Below are positions 37,582 to 59,344 of a stretch of 64,000 nt of DNA, piece by piece. The notes beneath the pieces are model-generated. The model did not search any database, was not told the DNA's origin, and saw only the letters and a program-made list of their open reading frames with translations. Every line of letters begins with the position of its first letter. The first letter of the stretch is position 1. Source of the stretch: Haloarcula marina (GTDB lineage: Archaea; Halobacteriota; Halobacteria; Halobacteriales; Haloarculaceae); NCBI RefSeq assembly GCF_024218775.1, contig NZ_CP100404.1:1922001-1986000 (forward strand), read 5' to 3'. Both the position numbers and the translations under genes were made by a program.

Positions 37582-38634
37582 TCAGGCGGTCGGCGGTTCG
37601 TCGCGGCCGATCTGTATCTCGTAGGCTTCGATGTCCTCGTAGGCGGCGACCTGTCCGCCTACGTCGACCGGTCCCTCCGCCGTCTCGACGACGAGCGTCG
37701 CCACCTCGCGATTCGGCCCGAACGACACCTCGGCGACCTCTCCCTGAACGACCCAGTGTTCGCCCGTCTCGACGTCCCTGCCTTCGATGGTCGCGTAGAA
37801 CTTGCCTTCGAGCGTCGTCAGGTCGGAGATACAGCGCCGTATCGTTCCGTACCGCCGCGGGAAGGGGAGGCCCATTCCGTCGGTCGCGATGACCTCCGCC
37901 GTCGTCCACAGGACGGTGTTGAGGAACCCAGAGACGAGGAAGCCGAGTTCCGAGCGGTTGAAGATGACGCCGTACCGGTCGCTCTCGCCCTGAATGGACT
38001 CGCGCGTCGCGTACATCGAGTAGTTGCCGTCGGCGACGGCGACGACGGGCGTCGTGATACCCCGTCGCCCCTTCACCGTCGTCGCAACCGACGCGTAGTC
38101 GAACTCTGTCGGCGACGGCGCCTTCGAAGACGGCGAGAGGAGAATCTCCGTCGCGATGCCCGAGTCGCGGCGCTTGGCCAACTTCGACTCGAACCGGTCG
38201 AGCAGCGAGGGCGTCAGCGACAGCGTCAGTTCGTACTCCGCCGCATCGATGATGTCGTCGAGGTAGCGCAGAATCGTCGGCCGGGACTTCACGAGCGAGA
38301 CGGCTTCCGGCTCGCGGGCCGGGGCAACGTACCGCGATGAGAGGTCGTCGACTAACGAATTCAGCGATTCCTGAATGTCGCCGAACGCCTCGCGGGGGTC
38401 TATCGCGAGGACCTTCATCGGCCGGGACTCCTTCAGTTCGACGAGGCCGACGTCGCTGAGGCTCCTGACCGTATCGTACACCCGTGGTTGCGGGATGCTC
38501 GTGTTCTCTGCTATCTCCGACGCCGTCATCTCGCCATGTTGGAGGACGGCCAGATACGCCGCAATCTCGTATTCGCCGAGATTGAAGCGTGATATGACCT
38601 GCTCTAGTGACGCCTCCAAATCGTCACTGGACAT
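37582..38634 (-). CDS. TrmB-type sugar-responsive transcriptional regulator (1)
   Basis: 350 residues. N-terminal TrmB winged helix (LGEYEIAAYLAVLQHGEMTA; IPQPRVYDTVRSLSDVGLVE) and a large C-terminal sugar-binding domain (LSLTPSLLDRFESKLAKRRD; GVIFNRSELGFLVSGFLNTV). TrmB proteins bind sugars and control ABC sugar uptake and glycolysis. It is last on the minus strand after a binding protein and an ATPase, 50 bases after the ATPase stop. Which sugar it senses is unknown. Confidence 0.9.
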   Translation of the reverse strand: MSSDDLEASLEQVISRFNLGEYEIAAYLAVLQHGEMTASEIAENTSIPQPRVYDTVRSLSDVGLVELKESRPMKVLAIDPREAFGDIQESLNSLVDDLSSRYVAPAREPEAVSLVKSRPTILRYLDDIIDAAEYELTLSLTPSLLDRFESKLAKRRDSGIATEILLSPSSKAPSPTEFDYASVATTVKGRRGITTPVVAVADGNYSMYATRESIQGESDRYGVIFNRSELGFLVSGFLNTVLWTTAEVIATDGMGLPFPRRYGTIRRCISDLTTLEGKFYATIEGRDVETGEHWVVQGEVAEVSFGPNREVATLVVETAEGPVDVGGQVAAYEDIEAYEIQIGRDEPPTA

Positions 38635-47363: not shown

Positions 47364-48887
47364 TTATGACGACTCGGTCTCGGCGAGGGCCGTCGCCAAC
47401 GCCTCCATCGCCTGCTCGGAGGACGTATCCTGCGCGACCGCACGGTTTGCCTGCTGGGCGATCTTGCTGGTCTGATTGCCCCAGACGGACGTGGTCGGGC
47501 GCGGCATCGTGTTCTCACCAGCCACACGGAGCGTGTCCATGTAACGGCCTGTCGGTTCCTGTTCTCTGGCGACGTCGGAGTTGAACAGTTCCGGTTTCGG
47601 CGGCAGCCAACCCCACACGCGGAGCAGGTCGAGGTTGAACGAGTCCTGCGTGACTGCACGGAACAGTTCGTTGAGGGCCTCCGGGCTCTGGGTGTTGGGG
47701 TTGCCGACAACGTGCCAGCCACCGAGTGCCGACGTCGTGCCACCCGTCCCTGGCTGTGCGGCATCACTCTCAGGAACGGCGTACGGAATCGGCATCGTCC
47801 CCAGGTCCGTTCCGAAGATGTCCTCGCTACCAGCACTGGCGATGGCGTAGGGCCAGTTGCGGTGGAACACGGAACTGCCGTTCTCGAAGGGTGCCTTCGA
47901 GGGGTTCTCTATCCAGCCGAGGATGTCCGTCGGCGTGAATCCGCCGCCGTAGCCGTCGAACTCGCCGCCGAAGTCCTCGTCGTGGACGAACTTCCGCATC
48001 ATGTTCAGCGACTTGATCGTCTCTGGCTCGTTGACGGTGATGGGGCGCTCGCCGACTGGCCCGAAGAGGTTGTCCCGGCCGCCGAAGTACGCGCCGCCGA
48101 ACGAGGACATGACCTCGTTGAACGTACAGCAGGCGGTGCCGACGTAGATGTCCCACTGGGTCGTAAAGCCGTAGTCGAGTCCGGCGTTGTCCTGTATGTC
48201 GACGGCGATGTTCGACCACTCCTCCCACGTCATCGGTTCGGTGGCCCAGTTGTTCGATTCCGGACTGTAACCGGCCTCTTCGGCGAGGTCCTTGCGGTAC
48301 AGCATCGTCGGGAAATCCGGGAACAGTGGAACGCCGAAGAGGTTCCCGCTACTGGGGTCCCGAGCGGTGTCGGTAAAGCCCTGGAAATAGTCGTTGTTGA
48401 CCGTCGAGAGCACGTCCTCCGGGAGTTGCTCCGACAGGTTCATGATCTGACCGCGCTGGATGAAAATGTTCACCCAGCCGTTGTCCATCAGCATCGCGTC
48501 CGGTTTCGACTCGCCCGCACTGAGTCGGCGGTTGAAGTTCGACCGAACCTCACCGGTGTTTTGGCTCTGTGTCGTGAAGTTCAGCTCGACCCAGTCAGGG
48601 AGGCCCGCGTTGCGGAACGCGTCGCGGACACCCTGCTCAGCTTCCTGCAGGATGGGCGCACCCATGCTCATGGTGACCGACTGTGTCTCCTGACCGCTCC
48701 CGTCTCCGGTCGAGCTACCGTCGCTCCCACCGCCGCCATCGCCACCGTCGCCACCGTCGCCACCACCGACGAAGTCTGCGCACCCAGCGATACCTGCTGC
48801 GACACCAGTCGCCCCTGCGGCACGGACGAACCGTCGCCGCGAAACGCCTGTCGAGCTATCACCGTTCTGCTTGCCATTGTCCGACAT
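47364..48887 (-). CDS. Extracellular sugar-binding lipoprotein (2)
   Basis: 507 residues. Tat signal (VSRRRFVRAAGATGVAAGIA) and lipobox Cys in GIAGCADFVGG, followed by a Gly/Ser/Asp-rich linker of about 30 residues and a family 1 solute-binding domain (LSEQLPEDVLSTVNNDYFQG; PMTWEEWSNIAVDIQDNAGL; WGWLPPKPELFNSDVA). First gene of the sugar operon on the minus strand; the operator palindrome 48934-48951 is 47 bases before the ATG. Probably binds glucose or an oligoglucoside, given the neighbours. Confidence 0.92.
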   Translation of the reverse strand: MSDNGKQNGDSSTGVSRRRFVRAAGATGVAAGIAGCADFVGGGDGGDGGDGGGGSDGSSTGDGSGQETQSVTMSMGAPILQEAEQGVRDAFRNAGLPDWVELNFTTQSQNTGEVRSNFNRRLSAGESKPDAMLMDNGWVNIFIQRGQIMNLSEQLPEDVLSTVNNDYFQGFTDTARDPSSGNLFGVPLFPDFPTMLYRKDLAEEAGYSPESNNWATEPMTWEEWSNIAVDIQDNAGLDYGFTTQWDIYVGTACCTFNEVMSSFGGAYFGGRDNLFGPVGERPITVNEPETIKSLNMMRKFVHDEDFGGEFDGYGGGFTPTDILGWIENPSKAPFENGSSVFHRNWPYAIASAGSEDIFGTDLGTMPIPYAVPESDAAQPGTGGTTSALGGWHVVGNPNTQSPEALNELFRAVTQDSFNLDLLRVWGWLPPKPELFNSDVAREQEPTGRYMDTLRVAGENTMPRPTTSVWGNQTSKIAQQANRAVAQDTSSEQAMEALATALAETESS

Positions 48888-48933: not shown

Positions 48934-48951
48934 TAACCACAGGTGTTGTTA
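48934..48951 (-). promoter_or_regulatory. Sugar-island operator, copy 1 (ABC operon)
   Basis: TAACCACAGGTGTTGTTA, one mismatch in one half from the consensus TAACAACA-NN-TGTTGTTA. Read in the direction of the ABC operon it is immediately followed by the TATA-like TTAATTATGG, so the site abuts the upstream side of the promoter. Confidence 0.7.
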
Positions 48952-49107: not shown

Positions 49108-50184
49108 TCACTCGTAGCGGATGTCGGTAATCGTGATGTTGGTCGCTTCTATCTCCTCTAAGACCGCACCCCACCCCCCGATTTCGTAGGTTGTACCGTC
49201 GGATTCGAGAGTCGCACTGATGCGCCCAGCCAACTGGACGAGGGGAACGGGGTCTTTGCGGTCCATCGCGCTCCCGATGTAGTTGACGTCGGTGATGGTC
49301 CCCGTGAGTTCGACGTGCTCCGACGTCGAGGTAATGAACCCTTCGACGGTGGCCTCGATAGTCGCGCCCTCGCTCAGTAGGGGTTCGATGTCCCGGACAG
49401 CGTACCGGAGGTCGACGTACGTCGTCGGCGTCTCCGGGGTTCGCTCCGTAACGATGGTGTCCCAGATCTCCCACAGACAGGTGAGGAAGAACCAGTGGAA
49501 GACGTAGGTGTGCGTGGGGTCGTTGACCAAGACGCCGTATTCGCTGACCGAGTGGCGGTGCGGCGCGAAGCACGTCCACTGGCGGTCGACGAGAACGAGG
49601 AACGGCGACGGCAACTCCCGGTGGCGCGCCTCGGTACAGGTCCCCTCGATGTCCTCGACGGTGGGGGCTTCCTCGTCGGGCTCCGTACAGATGCTCAGTT
49701 TGATGTCGATACCGCGCTCGTGTGCGTCTCGCAACGCCCGTTCGAGTTCGTAGAACTGCCGCGAGTTGACCCCCAGTTGAATCTGGTTCTCGGCGGCGTC
49801 GATGAGGTCGACCGCCCGGTTGAGCACCGTGTCGAACCGCTTGACGATGCTCACCTCGTGGTCCGAAATCTCCGGCTGGTTGTACCGCTCCTCTATAGTC
49901 TCCGCCGCGTCGAGGTACTTACTGGACCGGGACCGGAGGTCTTCGAGGACCTCTTTCGGGTCCCGCGCCCGCGCGGTGAGACTGTCCTGCTGGAAGGTTT
50001 CGATGTATCCCTTCGACTCTAAGTCCCGGAGCACGTCGTAGATTCGCGGGTCTGGGACGTCGCAGGACTCGGCGACGTCCGTCGCAGAGGCTGTCCCGAG
50101 TCCGAGCAGTGCCACGTACGCCTCCGCCTGATACGGCGAGAGGCCCGAGTCTTCGAGTATCGCTGTTAGTTCGTCGTCGTCCAT
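49108..50184 (-). CDS. TrmB-type sugar-responsive transcriptional regulator (2)
   Basis: 358 residues from ATG 50184 (MDDDELTAILEDSGLSPYQA). The TrmB winged helix (EAYVALLGLGTASATDVAES; VPDPRIYDVLRDLESKGYIE) is followed by a sugar-binding C-terminal domain with YVFHWFFLTCLWEIWDT. An upstream in-frame ATG gives an implausible basic extension. It lies upstream of the sugar ABC operon in the same direction. Its promoter region holds the best copy of the island operator (50445-50462), which suggests autoregulation. Confidence 0.9.
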   Translation of the reverse strand: MDDDELTAILEDSGLSPYQAEAYVALLGLGTASATDVAESCDVPDPRIYDVLRDLESKGYIETFQQDSLTARARDPKEVLEDLRSRSSKYLDAAETIEERYNQPEISDHEVSIVKRFDTVLNRAVDLIDAAENQIQLGVNSRQFYELERALRDAHERGIDIKLSICTEPDEEAPTVEDIEGTCTEARHRELPSPFLVLVDRQWTCFAPHRHSVSEYGVLVNDPTHTYVFHWFFLTCLWEIWDTIVTERTPETPTTYVDLRYAVRDIEPLLSEGATIEATVEGFITSTSEHVELTGTITDVNYIGSAMDRKDPVPLVQLAGRISATLESDGTTYEIGGWGAVLEEIEATNITITDIRYE

Positions 50185-50540
50185 GAGTGTGCGAGAGTGG
50201 TGTCGCTGTCTGTCTGACGGCAAATACCGGACACAGGGATTTCAGTCGTTCGACCCATCGCCAGTGCACTAGCGCGGAGGGCCACCACGGCCGGTGACGA
50301 CCGGTGCGGTGACTCCGGGGGCGGGCGACTGACGCGCCGACCGACCCAGTCGGTCCCGCCAGAACTGCACCCCGTCGGCCACCGCACTTCGTGGGGGAGA
50401 TTCGCCGACGGGGACGCAATGGGCGTGTCGACCATGGGAGCATATAACAACACCTGTTGTTAAAAAGTTTGGTTGCTATTCACAGACCAGTTCTGACGGA
50501 GGGGAACGCTAATGCTCCCCCGCGAACACCCGTTCTCTGA
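50185..50540. other. Long leader/intergenic region of TrmB (2)
   Basis: 356 bases with no convincing gene; minus-strand open frames here are Pro/Arg/Ser-rich and unlike haloarchaeal protein. It holds the operator at 50445-50462 and the minus-strand TATA element TTATATG next to it. If that is the TrmB promoter, the mRNA has a 5' leader of roughly 235 bases, long for a haloarchaeal gene. Confidence 0.45.
50445..50462 (-). promoter_or_regulatory. Sugar-island operator, copy 2 (TrmB 2 promoter)
   Basis: TAACAACACCTGTTGTTA, a perfect 8-bp inverted repeat around two bases. Read on the minus strand it is directly followed by TATATGCTCC. It is the best copy of the four. It is also 79 bases before the plus-strand gene at 50541. 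Confidence 0.75.
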
Positions 50541-51350
50541 ATGGTAGACCTTGCCTCGATGCGCGAACCCTCGTACACGGGGGAGAACCGATGTTGGCCC
50601 TGCACGCTCGTCAATCTCGCCGTCGTCGGGGTGTTCGTGCTGTGGTTGGCAGTACGGAAACGGCGGGTACTGAGCCTCGTGGTCGCGAGCGTCGGGGTCG
50701 GAATCGTCTACCTCCGGGGCTACGTCGTCCCGTACACCCCGCGGTTCGCACCGCAGTTGGTCGACGCGTCGCCGTTGCCGAACGACCTGTTTCACGACGC
50801 CATCGACGAACACGAGGCCGAACGGGAATCGCTCGCCGACGCCGACCTTGACGGCGAAACCGTGATGCGGGAACTGGGCGCGGCGGGCGTCCTCGTAGCC
50901 GAGGGTGAGATGCTCCTGTTGGCCGACGAGGTTGACGAGGCGTGGCGCGACGAGATGGACGCGCTCGCGTCGCTGTCGCTCTCCGACCTCGCGGCGGAAG
51001 TCGAGCGGTCGATGCCCAACGTTGGACGGGCGGACACCCTCGTCACCGACGGTTCCGAGTGGGTCGTCGTCGGCGACGCTGGCGGCGAACTCGTCGCTCG
51101 GCCGGTCGCTATCGCGGAACTGGCCGCCTACCGCACGCTCGGCGACCGAATCGACGACGAGGCGGTACGCCTCGCTGGCGCGGAGTCGTTCCGCATGTTT
51201 CTGGAGGCGTGTCCGGCCTGCGGGACGGCGCTCGTCGAGTCCTCGGAAGTCTCGTGCTGTGGCGGCTACATGACGCCGCGACAGTCCCCCAACGAAACCC
51301 TCGTCTGCCCGTCCTGTGAGCAGCGACTGTTCACGTTTCCGTCCGAGTAA
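50541..51350 (+). CDS. Membrane-anchored haloarchaeal protein with zinc-ribbon-like tail
   Basis: 269 residues. Two transmembrane segments near the N-terminus (about 23-40 and 43-60, VVGVFVLWLAVRK; LSLVVASVGVGIVYLRGYVV), a central acidic helical region (LADADLDGETVMRELGAAGV; SLSLSDLAAEVERSMPNVGR) and a C-terminal Cys-rich part with CPACG, SCCGG and CPSCEQ suggesting a zinc ribbon. No family name recognised. Divergent from the TrmB (2) leader with the operator between them. Confidence 0.75.
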   Translation: MVDLASMREPSYTGENRCWPCTLVNLAVVGVFVLWLAVRKRRVLSLVVASVGVGIVYLRGYVVPYTPRFAPQLVDASPLPNDLFHDAIDEHEAERESLADADLDGETVMRELGAAGVLVAEGEMLLLADEVDEAWRDEMDALASLSLSDLAAEVERSMPNVGRADTLVTDGSEWVVVGDAGGELVARPVAIAELAAYRTLGDRIDDEAVRLAGAESFRMFLEACPACGTALVESSEVSCCGGYMTPRQSPNETLVCPSCEQRLFTFPSE

Positions 51351-51565: not shown

Positions 51566-51583
51566 TAACAACAGCAGTTGTAA
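51566..51583 (+). promoter_or_regulatory. Sugar-island operator, copy 3 (gfcR promoter)
   Basis: TAACAACAGCAGTTGTAA, left half perfect, right half with two mismatches. Followed in the direction of gfcR by the TATA-like TAAATAG (51581-51587), about 65 bases before the ATG at 51650. The same promoter-proximal arrangement as copies 1 and 2. Confidence 0.6.
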
Positions 51584-51649: not shown

Positions 51650-52291
51650 ATGAAGAACATCGACGACCTCGTCGACAGCGCGGCCGACCTCGCCGAGCGA
51701 GGCCTCTCCAAGGGAGAGATTGCCGACGAACTGAACGTTTCGCGGGAGACGGCCAGTTGGCTCGTGGAACGGAGCGGTGCGGGCACCACCCCGCAGACCA
51801 CGTCCGCGAGCGGTCCCCACGACATCCACGTCGACTGGTCCGCCCTCGGCCGTGACAGCAACCGACTCCACCACATCGGCTGTGCCATGGCCGACCTGCT
51901 CTCGAAGCAGGGCGAAGACGTGGACCTCACCATCGGTATCGAGAAAGCGGGCGCACCGCTGGCGACCACCGTCGCCCGACAGTTGGACACCGACCTCGGA
52001 ACCTACGCCCCGACGAAGCACCAGTGGGACGACGACGACAGCGCCACCACCGACGGGTCGTTCTCGCGGAACTTCGCCCAGATTCGCGGCCGCGACTGCT
52101 ACATCGTTGACGACACCATCACCAGCGGCCGAACGATGACCGAGACGGTCGAAGCGATTCGAGAACAGGGCGGCAACCCCGTCGCCTGCGTCGTCCTCGC
52201 CGACAAGCGCGGCATCGAGGACATCCGCGGCGTGCCCGTCTACTCGCTTCTCCAGGTCATCCGCGTCGGCAGTGAGGAAGACGACGAATAG
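51650..52291 (+). CDS. gfcR: GfcR-type regulator (HTH + phosphoribosyltransferase domain)
   Basis: 213 residues. N-terminal HTH (LAERGLSKGEIADELNVSRE, residues 15-34) fused to a type I phosphoribosyltransferase domain with the PRPP loop YIVDDTITSGRT (151-162). This matches the orotate-phosphoribosyltransferase-like GfcR regulators, which in Haloferax activate sugar catabolic genes of the semi-phosphorylative Entner-Doudoroff route. Location beside glucosidases, gdh and sugar ABC genes supports that role. The plus-strand operator before it suggests control by the same factor or by itself. Confidence 0.85.
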   Translation: MKNIDDLVDSAADLAERGLSKGEIADELNVSRETASWLVERSGAGTTPQTTSASGPHDIHVDWSALGRDSNRLHHIGCAMADLLSKQGEDVDLTIGIEKAGAPLATTVARQLDTDLGTYAPTKHQWDDDDSATTDGSFSRNFAQIRGRDCYIVDDTITSGRTMTETVEAIREQGGNPVACVVLADKRGIEDIRGVPVYSLLQVIRVGSEEDDE

Positions 52292-52312: not shown

Positions 52313-54031
52313 TTATTCGCTGCGGTCGAGAATCCGCGCCTCGTACGGGCGCAGCGTCGCCCCGTCCCGTTCGCTCGCGGCGTAGTTCCCGAACAGCACC
52401 GGGGCGTCTACCCAGTCAGTATCGAGCGTCCGTTCCTCACCCTGCCAGTTCAGCACGACCAGCACCGACTCGCCGTCGAGCGTGCGGCGGTGCGCCCACA
52501 CGTTCGGGTACGTCTCGTCGGGGAGGACGTACTCGGTATCGCCGTAGACGAGCACGTCGGACTCGCGTCGGAACGCCAGTAGCCGCCGGTAGTAGTGGTA
52601 AATCGAGTCGGAGTCGTCGAGCGCCTCCGCGGCGTTTATCTCGGGATAGTTATCGTTGACCTGTATCCACGGGTCGCCGTCGGTAAAGCCCGCGTTCTCG
52701 CCGTCGTCCCACTGCATCGGCGTCCGCGCGTTGTCTCGGGACCGGTTGCGGACGAACGGGGCGATGGTCTCGTAGGGCACGTCGTGGTCGGCCATCAGCA
52801 TCTCCACCTGTCCGCGGGCCTCCACGTCGCGGATGTCGTCGGCGCTGTCCCAGTCGGCGTTGGTCATCCCGAGTTCGTCGCCCTGATACAGGAACGGCGT
52901 CGCGCGCTGTGAGAGGAGGAACGTGGCGACGAGTTTGGCCGACTCGCGGCGGTACTGGCGGTCGTCGCCGAATCTGGAGACGGCCCGCGTCTGGTCGTGA
53001 CTCCCCATGTAGAGGCAGTTCCACTCGTCGCCGACGCCCTCGTCCCAGTAGCGGATGGCCGCTTGCAGGTCGGCGAGGTCCATCGTGTTCAGCATCGCGT
53101 CGAGTTCGTCGTCGCCCGCCGACGCGAGCGTCTCCATCCCCACGTAGTCGGGACTCCACTTCCCGCCGGGGCCGTAGGTCACGTCCATGTGGTCGAAGTG
53201 GACGACCATGTCGACGCCGTCCTCGTAGTACTTCTTCGCCTCCTCGGGGTCCGCACCGGGCGTCTCGCCGATGAGCATCACGTCGTAGTTCTCGAAGGTC
53301 TCCGCGGCCATCTCCCGCATGAACTCGTGGATTCGCGGCCCGTTGAAGTACAGGTCCATGTCGAACCAGTCTTCGCCGGTATCGGCATCCGGGAGGCCCG
53401 GCGGTTTCGAGATACAGGAGATGGCGTCCATCCGGAAGCCGTCGATGCCCTTCTCCAACCAGAAGTTCATCATGTCGTAGATGGCGTCCCGAACGTCGGG
53501 GTTCTCCCAGTTCAAGTCGGGTTGCTTCTCGTCGAAGAGGTGCAGATACCACGCCTCCCGCGCCTCGTCGTAAGTCCACGCCGGACCGCCGAACAGCGAT
53601 ATCCAGTTGTTCGGCGGTTCCTCGGGCGACCCTTCACGCCAGATGTACCACTCGTCTTTCCCGCCGTCGGGGTCCCGAGACTCCTGGAACCACTCGTGTT
53701 CGTCGGAGGTGTGGTTGACGACGAGGTCCATCAGGAGACGCATATCCCGGTCGTGGAGTTCCGCGAGCAACTCGTCCCAGTCGGCCATCGTCCCCATCTC
53801 GTCCATGATGGTCCGGTAGTCCCGGATGTCGTACCCCATGTCGGCGTTCGGCGAGTCGTAGACTGGGCATACCCAGACCACGTCGACGCCCAACCGCTCG
53901 AGGTAGTCGACTCTGTCGACGATACCCCGTAGGTCGCCGACGCCGTCGCCGTCGCTGTCGGCGAAGCTACGGGGGTATATCTGGTACACTGCCGCTTCCT
54001 TCCACCACTCGCGGTTGGTTGTCGTGTTCAT
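52313..54031 (-). CDS. GH13 alpha-glucosidase (copy 4)
   Basis: 572 residues, cytoplasmic (no signal). GH13 oligo-1,6-glucosidase/alpha-glucosidase type: (beta/alpha)8 barrel with the catalytic Asp in GIDGFRMDAISC, the acid/base Glu in DVMLIGETPGAD and the third Asp in MGSHDQTRAVSRFG; C-terminal beta domain from about residue 480. The third region has SHDQTRA where the others have NHDxPR, so its specificity may differ. Last of four tandem paralogues, separated from copy 3 by 77 bases with a T tract, so it can be transcribed separately. Hydrolyses alpha-linked gluco-oligosaccharides after uptake. Confidence 0.92.
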   Translation of the reverse strand: MNTTTNREWWKEAAVYQIYPRSFADSDGDGVGDLRGIVDRVDYLERLGVDVVWVCPVYDSPNADMGYDIRDYRTIMDEMGTMADWDELLAELHDRDMRLLMDLVVNHTSDEHEWFQESRDPDGGKDEWYIWREGSPEEPPNNWISLFGGPAWTYDEAREAWYLHLFDEKQPDLNWENPDVRDAIYDMMNFWLEKGIDGFRMDAISCISKPPGLPDADTGEDWFDMDLYFNGPRIHEFMREMAAETFENYDVMLIGETPGADPEEAKKYYEDGVDMVVHFDHMDVTYGPGGKWSPDYVGMETLASAGDDELDAMLNTMDLADLQAAIRYWDEGVGDEWNCLYMGSHDQTRAVSRFGDDRQYRRESAKLVATFLLSQRATPFLYQGDELGMTNADWDSADDIRDVEARGQVEMLMADHDVPYETIAPFVRNRSRDNARTPMQWDDGENAGFTDGDPWIQVNDNYPEINAAEALDDSDSIYHYYRRLLAFRRESDVLVYGDTEYVLPDETYPNVWAHRRTLDGESVLVVLNWQGEERTLDTDWVDAPVLFGNYAASERDGATLRPYEARILDRSE

Positions 54032-54108: not shown

Positions 54109-55824
54109 TCAGTCGAGTTGATAGATTCGCGCCTCGTAGGGCGCGAGCGACACCGTGGACGGGTCATCGTCGTCGGCGTCGTAGTTCGAGAGCAACACGG
54201 CGGCGTCGTCGAACTCCACCGGCAGGTCGGTGGTCAGGTCGGCGTCCGAGAAGTTGAGGACGACGAGGAGGCGGTCGCGGCCCCCCTCCCCCTCGACGGT
54301 GCGCGTGTACGCGTACACGCTCTCGTGGCCGGGAAGCAAGTCCTCGTACGCGCCGTAGACCAGGGCGTCTCGGCGCTTGCGGAGCGCGATGAGTTCGCGG
54401 TAGTAGTTGAGGACGGATTCCTCGTCGGCATCTGCGGCCGCGACGTTGATCTCGTCGTGGTTCGGGTTGACCTGTATCCACGGGTCGCCGTCGGTGAACC
54501 CCGCGTTCTCGCCGTCGTCCCACTGCATCGGCGTCCGCGCGTTGTCCCGCGAGCGGTAACCGACCACGTCTTTCACGTCGTCGTAGTCCTCGTACTCCGG
54601 TTCTTCGAGGAGTTCCTCGGCGTGGTTGATGGCGTCCACGTCACGCAGTGATTCCTTCGAGTCCCACGGCGCGTTCGTCATCCCGAGTTCCTGGCCCTGA
54701 TAGATGTACGGCGTCCCGCGAAGCGTGAGAACGAACGTCCCCAGCATCGTCGCCGACTCGCGGCGGTAGTTCTCGGGGTCGCCGTACCGGGAGACGACGC
54801 GCGGTTGGTCGTGGTTCTCCCAGTAGAGCGCGTTCCAGCCCTCGTCTTCGAGGCCGGTCTGCCAGCGGCCGATAATCTCCTTGAGTTCGGTCAGGTCCCA
54901 GTCGCCGACGGCCCAGCGCTCGTCGCCGTCGTAGTCGAGTTTCGTGTGCTGGAAGTGAAAGGCCATGTCCAGCGGCCCGTCCTCGGCGGCGTACTCCGTC
55001 GCCTCGTCGACGGTCAGTTGGGGCATCTCGCCGACGGTCATCACGTCGTAGTTCGAGAGGACCTGTTCGTCCATCGCTTCGAGGTAGTCGGTCATCTCCG
55101 GCCCGTCGATGAAGTGCTCCGCGCCGACCCATTCGCCGTCGGGGTCGCCGTCCGGGAGGCCCTCGACCTTCGAGAGCAGGTTGATGACGTCCATCCTGAA
55201 GCCGTCGATACCTTTCGCCAGCCACCAGTCGATGGTGTCGAAGACCTCCTGTCGCACGTCTTCGTTCGTCCAGTCGAGGTCGGGTTGGGAGGTGTCGTAG
55301 AGGTGCAGGTAGTACGCCTCTCGCTCCTCGTCGTACTCCCACGCGGACCCGCCGAAGAAGGACTCCCAGTTGTTCGGCGGCCCGTCGCCGTCGCCCTCGC
55401 GCCAGATGTAGTAATCCTCGTACTCTGGGTTGCCCCGACGGGACTCGACGAACCACTCGTGGTCTCTGGAGGTGTGGTTGACCACGAGGTCCATCACGAG
55501 TTTCATGTCCCGGGCGTGGACCTCGTCGAGCAGGTCTTCCCAGTCGGCCATCGTCCCGAACTCCTCGTAGATGGCCTGATAGTCGCTGATGTCGTACCCG
55601 TTGTCTTCCTGGGGAGAGTCGTAGACGGGGTTGAGCCAGATGATGTCGACGCCGAGCGAGGCGACGTAGTCGAGACGGTCGATAAGCCCTCGCAGGTCAC
55701 CGACGCCGTCGCCGTCGCTGTCGGCGAAACTCCGCGGATACACCTGATAGACGACCGCCTCTTTCCACCAGGCGCGCTCGTCGTCCGATACGATTTCGTC
55801 GGGTGCTGTGTGCTGGATTGCCAT
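54109..55824 (-). CDS. GH13 alpha-glucosidase (copy 3)
   Basis: 571 residues. Active-site stretches: GIDGFRMDVINLLSK (nucleophile Asp), VMTVGEMPQL (Glu) and LYWENHDQPRVVSRYG (Asp). The N-terminus MAIQHTAPDEIVSDDERAWW is shared almost letter for letter with copy 2, including DNA around the start and the preceding stop. The sequence DTSQPDLDWTNEDVRQEVFD replaces the usual DEKQPDLNW region. Third gene of the operon, two bases after copy 2. Intracellular, acting on imported maltose- or isomaltose-like sugars. Confidence 0.93.
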   Translation of the reverse strand: MAIQHTAPDEIVSDDERAWWKEAVVYQVYPRSFADSDGDGVGDLRGLIDRLDYVASLGVDIIWLNPVYDSPQEDNGYDISDYQAIYEEFGTMADWEDLLDEVHARDMKLVMDLVVNHTSRDHEWFVESRRGNPEYEDYYIWREGDGDGPPNNWESFFGGSAWEYDEEREAYYLHLYDTSQPDLDWTNEDVRQEVFDTIDWWLAKGIDGFRMDVINLLSKVEGLPDGDPDGEWVGAEHFIDGPEMTDYLEAMDEQVLSNYDVMTVGEMPQLTVDEATEYAAEDGPLDMAFHFQHTKLDYDGDERWAVGDWDLTELKEIIGRWQTGLEDEGWNALYWENHDQPRVVSRYGDPENYRRESATMLGTFVLTLRGTPYIYQGQELGMTNAPWDSKESLRDVDAINHAEELLEEPEYEDYDDVKDVVGYRSRDNARTPMQWDDGENAGFTDGDPWIQVNPNHDEINVAAADADEESVLNYYRELIALRKRRDALVYGAYEDLLPGHESVYAYTRTVEGEGGRDRLLVVLNFSDADLTTDLPVEFDDAAVLLSNYDADDDDPSTVSLAPYEARIYQLD

Positions 55825-55826
55825 CG

Positions 55827-57575
55827 TTAGTTCAGGGAGTAGACGCGGGCCTCGTAGGGCCGCAGCGTCAGGTTTGCGTCGGTCACAGTCGGGGCGTCGT
55901 CGTAGTTCGCGACGAGGAGAGCCGTGCTTCGGGCCGCGTCGTCTATGGTCACGCTCGTCACACTGGCCGAAACGTTCAGCGTGACGAGAACGGCCACCTC
56001 GTCCAGTTCCATTCGGTAGGCCCAGACCGATTCGTGGTCGGGGCAGAGGTCGGTGTAGGTCCCGTAGACGAGGACGTCGTTCCCCTCTCGGAGGTCGACC
56101 AGTTCGCGGTAGTAGTGCAGCACGGAGTCGGGGTCGGCCTCGGCGGCGGCGACGTTGATCTCCTCGTAGTTAGGGTTGACCGCCAGCCACGGGTCGCCGT
56201 CGGTGAACCCCGCGTTCTCGCTGTCGTCCCACTGCATCGGCGTCCGGGCGTGGTCGCGGCTCCAGTAGTTGACGATGCCCAGTGCGTCCTCGGGGGCGTC
56301 GATAGCGCCCGCGTCGAGGAACTCCTCGACCTTCCCGAGAGTCATCGGGTCGTCCACCTCGTCGAGCGAGTCGAACTCGGCGTTCGTCATCCCGATCTCC
56401 TCGCCCTGATAGATGTAGGGGGTCCCGGACATCGTCAGCAGGAGCGTCGCGAACAGTTTCGCGCTCTCGGTTCGGTACTCACCGTCGTCACCGAACCGAG
56501 AGACGACGCGAGGGAGGTCGTGATTGCCGAAAAACAGCGTGTCCCACTCCACGGCGCGTTGCTTGTGGGCGATGATCCCCTTCAACTCCACGAGGTCCCA
56601 CTTGCCCCAGTCGTCGAGGTCCCACTGGCCGTCGGACCCGAAGTCGACACCCGTATGGTCGAACTGGAAGGCCATATCGAGCGGGCCGTCCTCGCCGATG
56701 TAGTCGTTGACCTGCTCGACGGTGGTCTCGCCCATCTCCCCAACGGTCGTCGCATCGTAGTTCGCGAGCGTCTCGTCGTGCAGTTCCCGGAGGTACTCCT
56801 GTAACCGTGGACCGTGGCTGAACTGTTCGAGGCCGACGAGCGACGCGCTCGGGTCACCGTCGGGGTACCCCTCGGCCTTCGAGAGGAAGTCGATAGCGTC
56901 AATGCGGAAGCCGTCGATGCCCTTCTCCAGCCACCAGTTCATCATCTCGTAGACCGCCGCTCGGACGTCGGGATTCCGCCAGTTGAGATCCGGTTGCGTC
57001 TCGTCGAACAGGTGGAGATACCACTGCCCGCGCTCGTCGTCGTAGCTCCACGCCGACCCGCCGAAGATCGAATCCCAGTTGTTCGGCGCGACTTCGTCCG
57101 CGGGGCCGTCAGCAGTGTCGTAGTCGGCCTCTGTGGCCGGGCGGCCGTCCTGCCAGTGGTAGTAGTCGGCGTACTCGCCCTCGCGGCGGCGCGAGCGCTG
57201 GAACCACTCGTGCTGGTCGGAGGTGTGGTTGACCACGAGGTCCATGATGAGGCGCATATCGCGGTCGTGGAGCGCGTCTAAGAGGGTCTCCCAGTCGGCC
57301 ATGGTTCCGTACTCCTCGTGGATGGCCCGGTAGTCGCTGATGTCGTAGCCGTTGTCTCTCTGTGGCGAGGAGTACACCGGGCAGAGCCACACTACGTCGA
57401 CACCGAGCGAATCGAGGTAGTCGACTTTCTCCGTGATTCCGGCGAGGTCGCCGATACCGTCGCCGTCGCTGTCGTTGAAACTCCGGGGATACACCTGATA
57501 GACGACCGCTTCTTTCCACCAGGCTCGTTCGTCGTCCGATACGATTTCGTCGGGTGCTGTGTGCTGGATACCCAT
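55827..57575 (-). CDS. GH13 alpha-glucosidase (copy 2)
   Basis: 582 residues. Catalytic residues in GIDGFRIDAIDFLSK (Asp), ATTVGEMGETTV (Glu) and FFGNHDLPRVVSRFG (Asp; HDL instead of HDQ). A loop around YHWQDGRPATEADYDTADGP is longer than in the other copies, which may shape substrate entry. N-terminus MGIQHTAPDEIVSDDERAWW nearly identical to copy 3. Two bases separate it from copy 1 and from copy 3. Paralogue of the other glucosidases with probable subfunctional specificity. Confidence 0.93.
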   Translation of the reverse strand: MGIQHTAPDEIVSDDERAWWKEAVVYQVYPRSFNDSDGDGIGDLAGITEKVDYLDSLGVDVVWLCPVYSSPQRDNGYDISDYRAIHEEYGTMADWETLLDALHDRDMRLIMDLVVNHTSDQHEWFQRSRRREGEYADYYHWQDGRPATEADYDTADGPADEVAPNNWDSIFGGSAWSYDDERGQWYLHLFDETQPDLNWRNPDVRAAVYEMMNWWLEKGIDGFRIDAIDFLSKAEGYPDGDPSASLVGLEQFSHGPRLQEYLRELHDETLANYDATTVGEMGETTVEQVNDYIGEDGPLDMAFQFDHTGVDFGSDGQWDLDDWGKWDLVELKGIIAHKQRAVEWDTLFFGNHDLPRVVSRFGDDGEYRTESAKLFATLLLTMSGTPYIYQGEEIGMTNAEFDSLDEVDDPMTLGKVEEFLDAGAIDAPEDALGIVNYWSRDHARTPMQWDDSENAGFTDGDPWLAVNPNYEEINVAAAEADPDSVLHYYRELVDLREGNDVLVYGTYTDLCPDHESVWAYRMELDEVAVLVTLNVSASVTSVTIDDAARSTALLVANYDDAPTVTDANLTLRPYEARVYSLN

Positions 57576-57577
57576 CG

Positions 57578-59236
57578 TTAGTTCAATGTGTAGACACGGG
57601 CCTCGTAGGGCCGAAGCGTCAGTTCAGTGCCGTTCGGATGCTGTTCGTCGTAGTTCGAGACGAGTAGGTCGGCGGCCGCGGCGGCCGGGTCGAGAGTGAC
57701 TGTCGTCTCGGTGTCGCTGAAGTTCAGCGCGACGAGGACCGCCTCCTCGTCCAGTTCCATCCGGTAAGCCCACACCTCCTCGTGGTCGGGGAGGAGGAGT
57801 TCGTAGTCGCCGTAGACGAATACGTCGTGGGCGTCCCGTAGGTCGACCAGTTCGCGGTAGTAGTGCAGCACGGAGTCGGGGTCGGCCTCGGCGGCCGCCA
57901 CGTTGACGTCCTCGTAATCCGGGTTGACCGCGAGCCACGGGTCGCCGTCGGTGAACCCCGCGTTCTCGCTGTCGTCCCACTGCATCGGCGTCCGCGCGTT
58001 GTCACGCGAGCGCGCTCGGACGATATCTTGAACCTCCTCGAAGCCGTCGATTTCGCCCGCCTCGATGGCTTCCTCGACCTTGCCGATGGACTGGAGGTCG
58101 TCGAGTTCGTCGAGGCCGGACCACGGGTAGTTCGTCATCCCGATTTCCTGGCCCTGATACACGTACGGCGTGCCCGAGAGCGTAAAGAGGAGCGTCCCCA
58201 GCAGTTTGCCGGACTCGACGCGGTACTCGTCGTCGTCGGCGAACCGAGAGACGATACGCGGTTGGTCGTGGTTCGTCAGGTACAGCGAGTTCCACCCGTC
58301 GAGTTCGGTCTGCCAGTAGGACATGACCGCCTTCAGGTCGCTGAGGTCCCACTCGGCGGGCGACAACCAGCGGTCGCCCATGTCGACCTGCATGTGCTCG
58401 AAGTGGAACACCATGTCCATCGGGCCGTCGGCCGAGACGTAGTCGCTGGCCGTCTCCACGTCGATGCCGACGCATTCGCCGACGGTCATCGCGTCGTAGT
58501 TGTCGTACGTCTCGGCGGCCATCTCCGCTAAGTACTCTTGGGCGCGCGGGCCGTTGGCGAAGTGTTCGATGCCGACCCAGTCCTGTTCGGGGTCGCCGTC
58601 AGGGAGGCCCTCGGGTTTGGAGATGAGGTTGATGACGTCCATCCGGAACCCGTCGATACCCTTCTCCAGCCACCAGTTCATCAGTTCGTACACGTCCTCG
58701 CGGACGGCCGCCTCGTCCCAGTCGAGGTCGGCTTGCGTCTCGTCGAACAGGTGGAGGTACTGCATCCCGGCTTCCTCGTCGGACGCCCACGCGGACCCGC
58801 CGAACCCGCTCTTCCAGTTGTTCGGCGGATGCTCGGCGTCGCCCTCGCGCCAGAAGTAGTAGTTCCGGTACCCGCCCTCGTCGCGGCGGGACTGCTGGAA
58901 CCACTCGTGTTCCGTCGACGTGTGATTGACCACGAGGTCCATGATGAGTCGCATATCCCGGTCGTGGACTTCCGCCAGCAGTTCCTCCCAGTCGGCCATC
59001 GTTCCGTACTCGTCGTAGATGGCCCGGTAGTCACGGATGTCGTAGCCGTTGTCCGCTTGCGGGGAGTCGTACACCGGGTTCAGCCAGATGACATCCGCCC
59101 CCAGCGACGCGACGTAGTCGAGTCGGTCGGTGATTCCCTGTAAGTCACCGACACCGTCGCCGTCGCTATCGTTGAAGCTTCGGGGATAAATTTGGTAGAC
59201 GACCGCCTCTTTCCACCACGCACGCTCCTCGTCCAT
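57578..59236 (-). CDS. GH13 alpha-glucosidase (copy 1, first of operon)
   Basis: 552 residues, starting MDEERAWWKEAVVYQIYPRS without the HTAPDEIVSDD leader of copies 2 and 3. Catalytic Asp in GIDGFRMDVINLISK, Glu in DAMTVGECVGID, Asp in YLTNHDQPRIVSRFA. C-terminal beta domain ends with TLRPYEARVYTLN, an ending shared with copy 2 (LTLRPYEARVYSLN). First gene behind the operator/inverted-repeat promoter, ATG at 59236 only about 27 bases from the TATA box, so leaderless. Confidence 0.93.
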   Translation of the reverse strand: MDEERAWWKEAVVYQIYPRSFNDSDGDGVGDLQGITDRLDYVASLGADVIWLNPVYDSPQADNGYDIRDYRAIYDEYGTMADWEELLAEVHDRDMRLIMDLVVNHTSTEHEWFQQSRRDEGGYRNYYFWREGDAEHPPNNWKSGFGGSAWASDEEAGMQYLHLFDETQADLDWDEAAVREDVYELMNWWLEKGIDGFRMDVINLISKPEGLPDGDPEQDWVGIEHFANGPRAQEYLAEMAAETYDNYDAMTVGECVGIDVETASDYVSADGPMDMVFHFEHMQVDMGDRWLSPAEWDLSDLKAVMSYWQTELDGWNSLYLTNHDQPRIVSRFADDDEYRVESGKLLGTLLFTLSGTPYVYQGQEIGMTNYPWSGLDELDDLQSIGKVEEAIEAGEIDGFEEVQDIVRARSRDNARTPMQWDDSENAGFTDGDPWLAVNPDYEDVNVAAAEADPDSVLHYYRELVDLRDAHDVFVYGDYELLLPDHEEVWAYRMELDEEAVLVALNFSDTETTVTLDPAAAAADLLVSNYDEQHPNGTELTLRPYEARVYTLN

Positions 59237-59246
59237 ACGCGGTAAG

Positions 59247-59285
59247 GTTGTCTAATGCTTTACTTAAATCTACGCATTAGACAAC
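59247..59285 (-). promoter_or_regulatory. 12-bp inverted repeat bracketing the glucosidase TATA box
   Basis: GTTGTCTAATGC (59247-59258) and GCATTAGACAAC (59274-59285) are perfect complements with a 15-base spacer that contains the minus-strand TATA box ATTTAAGTA. The arms lie 27 bases centre to centre. Overlaps the outer operator copy 4. Strongly suggests a specific repressor/activator site at the core promoter. Confidence 0.65.
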
Positions 59286-59299
59286 AACAGGTGTTGTAA
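59282..59299 (-). promoter_or_regulatory. Sugar-island operator, copy 4 (glucosidase operon)
   Basis: CAACAACAGGTGTTGTAA, one mismatch per half from TAACAACA-NN-TGTTGTTA, just upstream of the TATA box of the glucosidase operon, partly overlapping the 12-bp inverted repeat. Confidence 0.65.
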
Positions 59300-59344
59300 A
59301 CACGTTTCGGCACTAACGGAAACCGCACTCGACAGGCCCGTAGC

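Follow-up and report, generated by a model that had tools for sequence, protein, structure and literature searches.

The TATA box of a glucosidase operon in Haloarcula marina is enclosed by a perfect 12-bp inverted repeat, which raises the question whether this repeat is a regulatory site of its own. The initial annotation of the window (the whole 64,000-nucleotide stretch of DNA analyzed here) proposed that two different regulatory sites, the repeat and an operator, meet at this promoter and give layered control of a four-glucosidase locus. Its description of the sequence was accurate. The arms were complementary at 12 of 12 positions across a 15-nt spacer, and the TATA box, ATTTAAGTA on the minus strand, was located inside the spacer and was kept in orthologous promoters. 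The operon encoded four GH13 enzymes, and the nearest named relatives of the first (81-84%) were from Halomicroarcula rubra, Haloarcula amylovorans, and Haloarcula pellucida. The upstream arm starts within the shoulder of operator copy 4 and shares 2 bp (59284-59285) with its 14-bp core, so the annotation was right that the arm touches this operator. It was also right that the repeat is present once in the window, where no other site with two or fewer mismatches from the arm was found. Coordinates of the features are collected in Table 1.

Table 1. Features of the sugar gene cluster and of the glucosidase promoter (positions in the 64-kb window).
Feature	Position	Strand	Remarks
Other TrmB-type gene	37582-38634		Haloarchaeal TrmB equivalog (NF047392), 615.5 bits
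ABC-transporter substrate-binding gene	47364-48887		Downstream of operator copy 1
Operator copy 1, one mismatch	48936-48949	-	ACAACACCTGTGGT; upstream of the substrate-binding gene
TrmB-family regulator, candidate operator binder	49108-50184	-	PF01978 and PF11495
Operator copy 2	50447-50460	-	Between the trmB-like gene (minus strand) and a divergent gene at 50541
Operator copy 3	51568-51581	+	Upstream of gfcR (51650-52291)
gfcR, PRTase-type regulator, rival candidate binder	51650-52291	+	NF045507, 383.8 bits (cut-off 300)
GH13 gene, fourth of operon	52313-54031	-	
GH13 gene, third of operon	54109-55824	-	
GH13 gene, second of operon	55827-57575	-	
GH13 alpha-glucosidase-like gene, first of operon	57578-59236	-	Pfam PF00128, E 2.4e-153
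Repeat arm, downstream relative to operon	59247-59258	.	GTTGTCTAATGC
TATA box of glucosidase operon	about 59262-59272	-	TAGATTTAAGT; within the repeat spacer; conserved in orthologues
Repeat arm, upstream relative to operon	59274-59285	.	GCATTAGACAAC; inner part not conserved
Operator copy 4, ACAAC-N4-GTTGT	59284-59297	-	Upstream of the glucosidases; TTTACAACACCTGTTGT at 59284-59300, minus strand

The elements of the glucosidase promoter were compared with those of related genomes. The core ACAAC-N4-(A/G)TTGT followed by a TATA box was present in 25 of the 29 best-matching glucosidase promoters (the window included), with 27-29 nt between the start of the core and the start of the TATA box, and was missing in the other four (L096, L102, L105, and L110). 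The first T of TTTAAG was 32 nt from the start codon (ATG at 59236) in the window and 30-33 nt from it in the orthologues. This distance fits a leaderless mRNA of the glucosidase operon, with the putative start site placed from the position of the ATG.

The window contained four copies of the operator, three exact and one with a single mismatch. With two mismatches allowed, the core was no more frequent in the window than expected (15 matches against 17.2), so the analysis was confined to the close copies. A search with the strict form, TTTACAAC-N4-GTTGT, gave 64 matches in 28 of the 32 genomes of the genus, against 0 for the reversed control. The position and spacing of the operator were conserved at the transporter promoters: among 29 loci examined, a copy was found in 27, and in 26 of these it was located 30 nt from the TATA box. 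At the gfcR promoters, the corresponding distance was 52 nt in three examined species; elsewhere the gfcR copy was closer to the ATG, at 74-76 nt rather than 82. Copy 2 is directly next to the minus-strand sequence TTTTTAA, and such a T-rich neighbor would suit autorepression of the trmB-like gene. The palindrome ACAAC-N4-GTTGT was thus found at sugar-gene promoters close to a TrmB gene, and its four copies, which mark the promoters of the sugar cluster, represent a genus-wide operator, probably that of the TrmB-like regulator. The evidence favors ACAAC-N4-GTTGT as the conserved control site here, with one operator only at the glucosidase promoter.

Outside the cluster, the same genome contained operator-like matches with one or two mismatches (for example C1:640571 and C1:2471837), which, as part of 20 motif loci, were judged by the nearest reading frames only. 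The strict operator was also observed elsewhere, at 1501-1517 of four further loci, each setting being seen in two genomes: in L166 and L167 where a short reading frame begins that resembles response regulators as judged by eye, and in L159 and L160 ahead of a 150-aa frame of one family, at a distance of 42-43 bases.

Two TrmB-type regulators flank the cluster. One is the haloarchaeal TrmB equivalog, and the other, encoded at 49108-50184, is a distinct paralogue. The latter possesses the PF01978 DNA-binding domain and the PF11495 sugar-binding domain, which place it in the TrmB family, and scored 145.5 bits with NF047392, below the equivalog cut-off of 500 bits. Orthologues with at least 70% identity to this paralogue were found in 29 of the 32 genus genomes, and a core match of at least 9/10 was present within the 1.5 kb flanks of all 29 loci. 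In genus g21, three genomes carried the motif at a distance of 182-185 bases from the TrmB orthologue, measured to its start or end coordinate. A survey of the family covered 67 genomes, including that of the window and five other members of the genus; of these, 12 carried the extended motif and 11 the TrmB orthologue: 9 had both, 2 the regulator only, 3 the motif only, and 53 neither. The extended motif was therefore found in 9 of 11 genomes with the orthologue and in 3 of 56 without it (Fisher p 2.6e-7, not corrected for kinship); outside the genus, the numbers were 3 of 5 and 3 of 56 (p 0.005, likewise uncorrected). The operator and its putative regulator were thus co-distributed, as far as counts uncorrected for kinship indicate, and the operator is probably bound by the neighboring TrmB-type regulator.

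The same operator might instead be bound by GfcR, because gfcR is part of the cluster with an operator copy upstream, and GfcR activates sugar catabolism in haloarchaea according to the available text of PMC11519228. We consider this unlikely. GfcR was encoded in 32 of 32 genus genomes, so that its presence does not follow the motif, whereas across the family the motif follows the TrmB gene. G009, the only near-complete genome of the genus that separates TrmB from GfcR, possessed GfcR at 89% identity but only a TrmB relative of 45% identity, and the strict motif was absent from it.

In contrast to the operator, the 12-bp repeat was a property of one genome. The exact repeat, allowing spacers of 10-20, was found in 0 of the 31 other genus genomes (1 of 32 when the genome of the window is counted). 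Besides that of the window, 24 orthologous promoters had both operator and TATA box preserved; in these, 1-7 of the 12 homologous pairs matched, with a mean of 4.3. In an 11-row alignment, 53.4% of cells were paired, against 50.0% in shuffles, and 59 of 500 shuffles reached 53.4%. When the alignment was slid by one column, 55.7% of cells were paired, no worse than in the true register. The repeat was thus not conserved at orthologous promoters and its pairing did not exceed that of shuffles, whereas four of the five dyad pairs of the operator were invariant in the same alignment and the fifth was kept in 8 of 11 rows.

Each arm carries the operator half-site GTTGT as its outer five bases. Read on the minus strand, the GTTGT of the operator is followed by TGTC, part of which is reused in the repeat. 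The inner CTAATGC of the upstream arm was private to the window and absent from relatives. The downstream arm aligned with a partly conserved stretch between the TATA box and the start codon, which was GGATTAGACTA(G/C) in the close relatives L083, L084, and L087. Relatives read GGATTAGACTA(G/C) or GTCAGGCTACC in this stretch.

We also examined how often such repeats are expected by chance. Perfect arms of at least 12 with spacers of up to 40 were counted in the whole window and in 60 Markov-randomized windows. The window contained two, at 59247-59285 and in coding sequence at 56464, and the randomized windows contained 0.67 +/- 0.87 each (sd), with at least one in 47% of the 60. The inverted repeat is no more than chance gives. 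For one intergenic stretch of the same composition, the expectation was 0.00065; such a repeat is therefore rare at one promoter, yet about one or two would be expected over a few thousand promoters, the promoter number being assumed. Because of this improbability at a single promoter, selection for the repeat in this lineage is possible. The other repeat, 13-bp and perfect with a 13-nt spacer (56464-56502), is within the second glucosidase gene and is probably a coding coincidence.

The genome-wide search that the initial annotation had suggested found no second copy of the repeat in the 3.74-Mb genome. Sites matching an 11-base arm with at most one mismatch numbered 7, against 16 for the reversed control, and a genome-wide family of arm-like sites was rejected on this count. 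With one copy and no arm family in the genome, the repeat does not recur at other promoters of the regulon, and its single copy also led us to reject a mobile element or recombination site. Published TrmB motifs were rejected as the source of the repeat, as none matches in the window.

Since the repeat showed neither excess over chance nor conservation, it is unlikely to be a separate regulatory site, and it is most likely a species-private coincidence. Of the two sites that were proposed to meet at this promoter, operator copy 4 is conserved and supported, but the repeat, absent from 31 genomes, with pairing not kept in 24 promoters and without an arm family, is not supported as a second one. 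The proposal of layered control would then have no support other than the repeat itself.

Two further readings of the repeat were considered, to each of which we give a low probability. In the first, the repeat is a species-specific operator whose two arms are held by a repressor dimer that spans the TATA box, blocks TBP/TFB, and so adds a layer of control to that of the conserved operator. The arms are perfect and centered on the TATA box, and the low expectation for one such intergenic region speaks for this reading. A distance of 27 nt between the arm starts, with a 15-nt spacer, is however long for one dimer, and the missing second copy, the missing half-site family, and the loss of the repeat and of its pairing in the genus count against it. 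In favor of this reading, too, the downstream arm is placed between the TATA box and the start, which is where TrmB-type repressors act according to the accessible part of PMC4158304. In the second reading, a repeat already present in imperfect form in relatives became perfect through quasi-palindrome correction, either by template switching or by mismatch repair of a hairpin, and has no regulatory role. L084 pairs at 7 of 12 homologous positions, and all five differences of the arms from L084 turn a mismatch into a match (by eye). This pattern is, however, partly forced by the choice of a perfect repeat. Moreover, the arms (5 of 24 positions different from L084, by eye) were no more changed than the spacer (4 of 15), and the changes are unpolarized, with no close strain.

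It is very unlikely that, in this species, the TrmB-like regulator both activates through the upstream operator and blocks through the lone ACAAC half-site of the downstream arm, beyond the same TATA box, as an on/off switch newly evolved by extension of the operator shoulder into the 12-bp dyad. A hairpin or terminator acting in RNA where the upstream M24 gene ends (stop 59345) is highly improbable and was set aside: a 105-nt minus-strand RNA does fold (-30.3 kcal/mol, z -2.27) so that the arms form a 12-bp stem, but no U-run follows the stem, the stem is not conserved in orthologues, and the likely start of the operon is downstream of both arms, so that its own mRNA would not contain them.

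Taken as a whole, the explanation that we prefer, and consider reasonably probable, is a leaderless promoter activated through one TrmB-bound operator, with the 12-bp repeat as a private coincidence. The TrmB-family regulator would bind ACAAC-N4-GTTGT as a dimer, and a dimer just upstream of BRE/TATA may help to recruit TBP/TFB when the right sugar signal is given. The same regulator may act at the ABC-transporter promoter, near gfcR, and near its own gene. The repeat would have arisen where the outer five bases of its arms are the operator half-site and the remaining bases are complementary by accident. Against this explanation are the four glucosidase promoters without the operator, the three family genomes with the extended motif but without a close TrmB relative and the two of the reverse kind, the separation of TrmB from GfcR in no near-complete genus genome but G009, the improbability of the repeat at a single promoter, the partial conservation of the downstream arm, and the lack of resemblance between the operator and the TrmB motifs given in PMC4158304. 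Setting the repeat apart from the conserved operator avoids a chase after a false regulator.

The arrangement resembles known TrmB systems, namely TrmB/TrmBL1 of Thermococcales, VNG1451C of Halobacterium, and HAH_1548 of Haloarcula hispanica, in two respects: the regulator, which has PF01978 and PF11495, is encoded next to an ABC transporter for sugars, and a short palindromic operator precedes BRE/TATA at genes that are putatively activated. Activation by TrmB-type regulators bound at upstream sites is described in PMC10817205 and PMC4158304. The motifs TACT-N3-AGTA, TACT-N7-8-GAGTA, and TATCAC-N5-GTGATA, quoted in the accessible text of PMC4158304, differ from the operator here; none of them (the second also as reverse complement) matched anywhere in the window, and ACAAC-N4-GTTGT is thus not one of the published TrmB motifs compared. 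We found no account of it in the literature surveyed on haloarchaeal GfcR, TrmB, and HAH_1557, supplements excluded. The candidate binder also differs from the haloarchaeal TrmB equivalog in its low score. GfcR, a PRTase-type activator of sugar degradation in haloarchaea, is shared as a gene of the cluster with an operator copy before it, but its presence across the genus does not follow the motif.

The closest parallel by context is HAH_1557 (TrmB3) of Haloarcula hispanica. According to the available parts of PMC10817205 and PMC11519228, this species has four TrmB homologues, including HAH_1557 beside a transporter, and its gfcR is HAH_1560, so the neighborhood looks alike, with a TrmB-type gene flanking the transporter as 49108-50184 does here. 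The text of PMC10817205 at hand describes the binding of HAH_1548, and in the literature available to us no motif or targets of HAH_1557 were found. Through the operator described here, genes of sugar uptake and hydrolysis and gfcR would form a single regulon in Haloarcula-like archaea, and ACAAC-N4-GTTGT is a testable candidate binding site for the little-studied TrmB paralogue of the HAH_1557 type.
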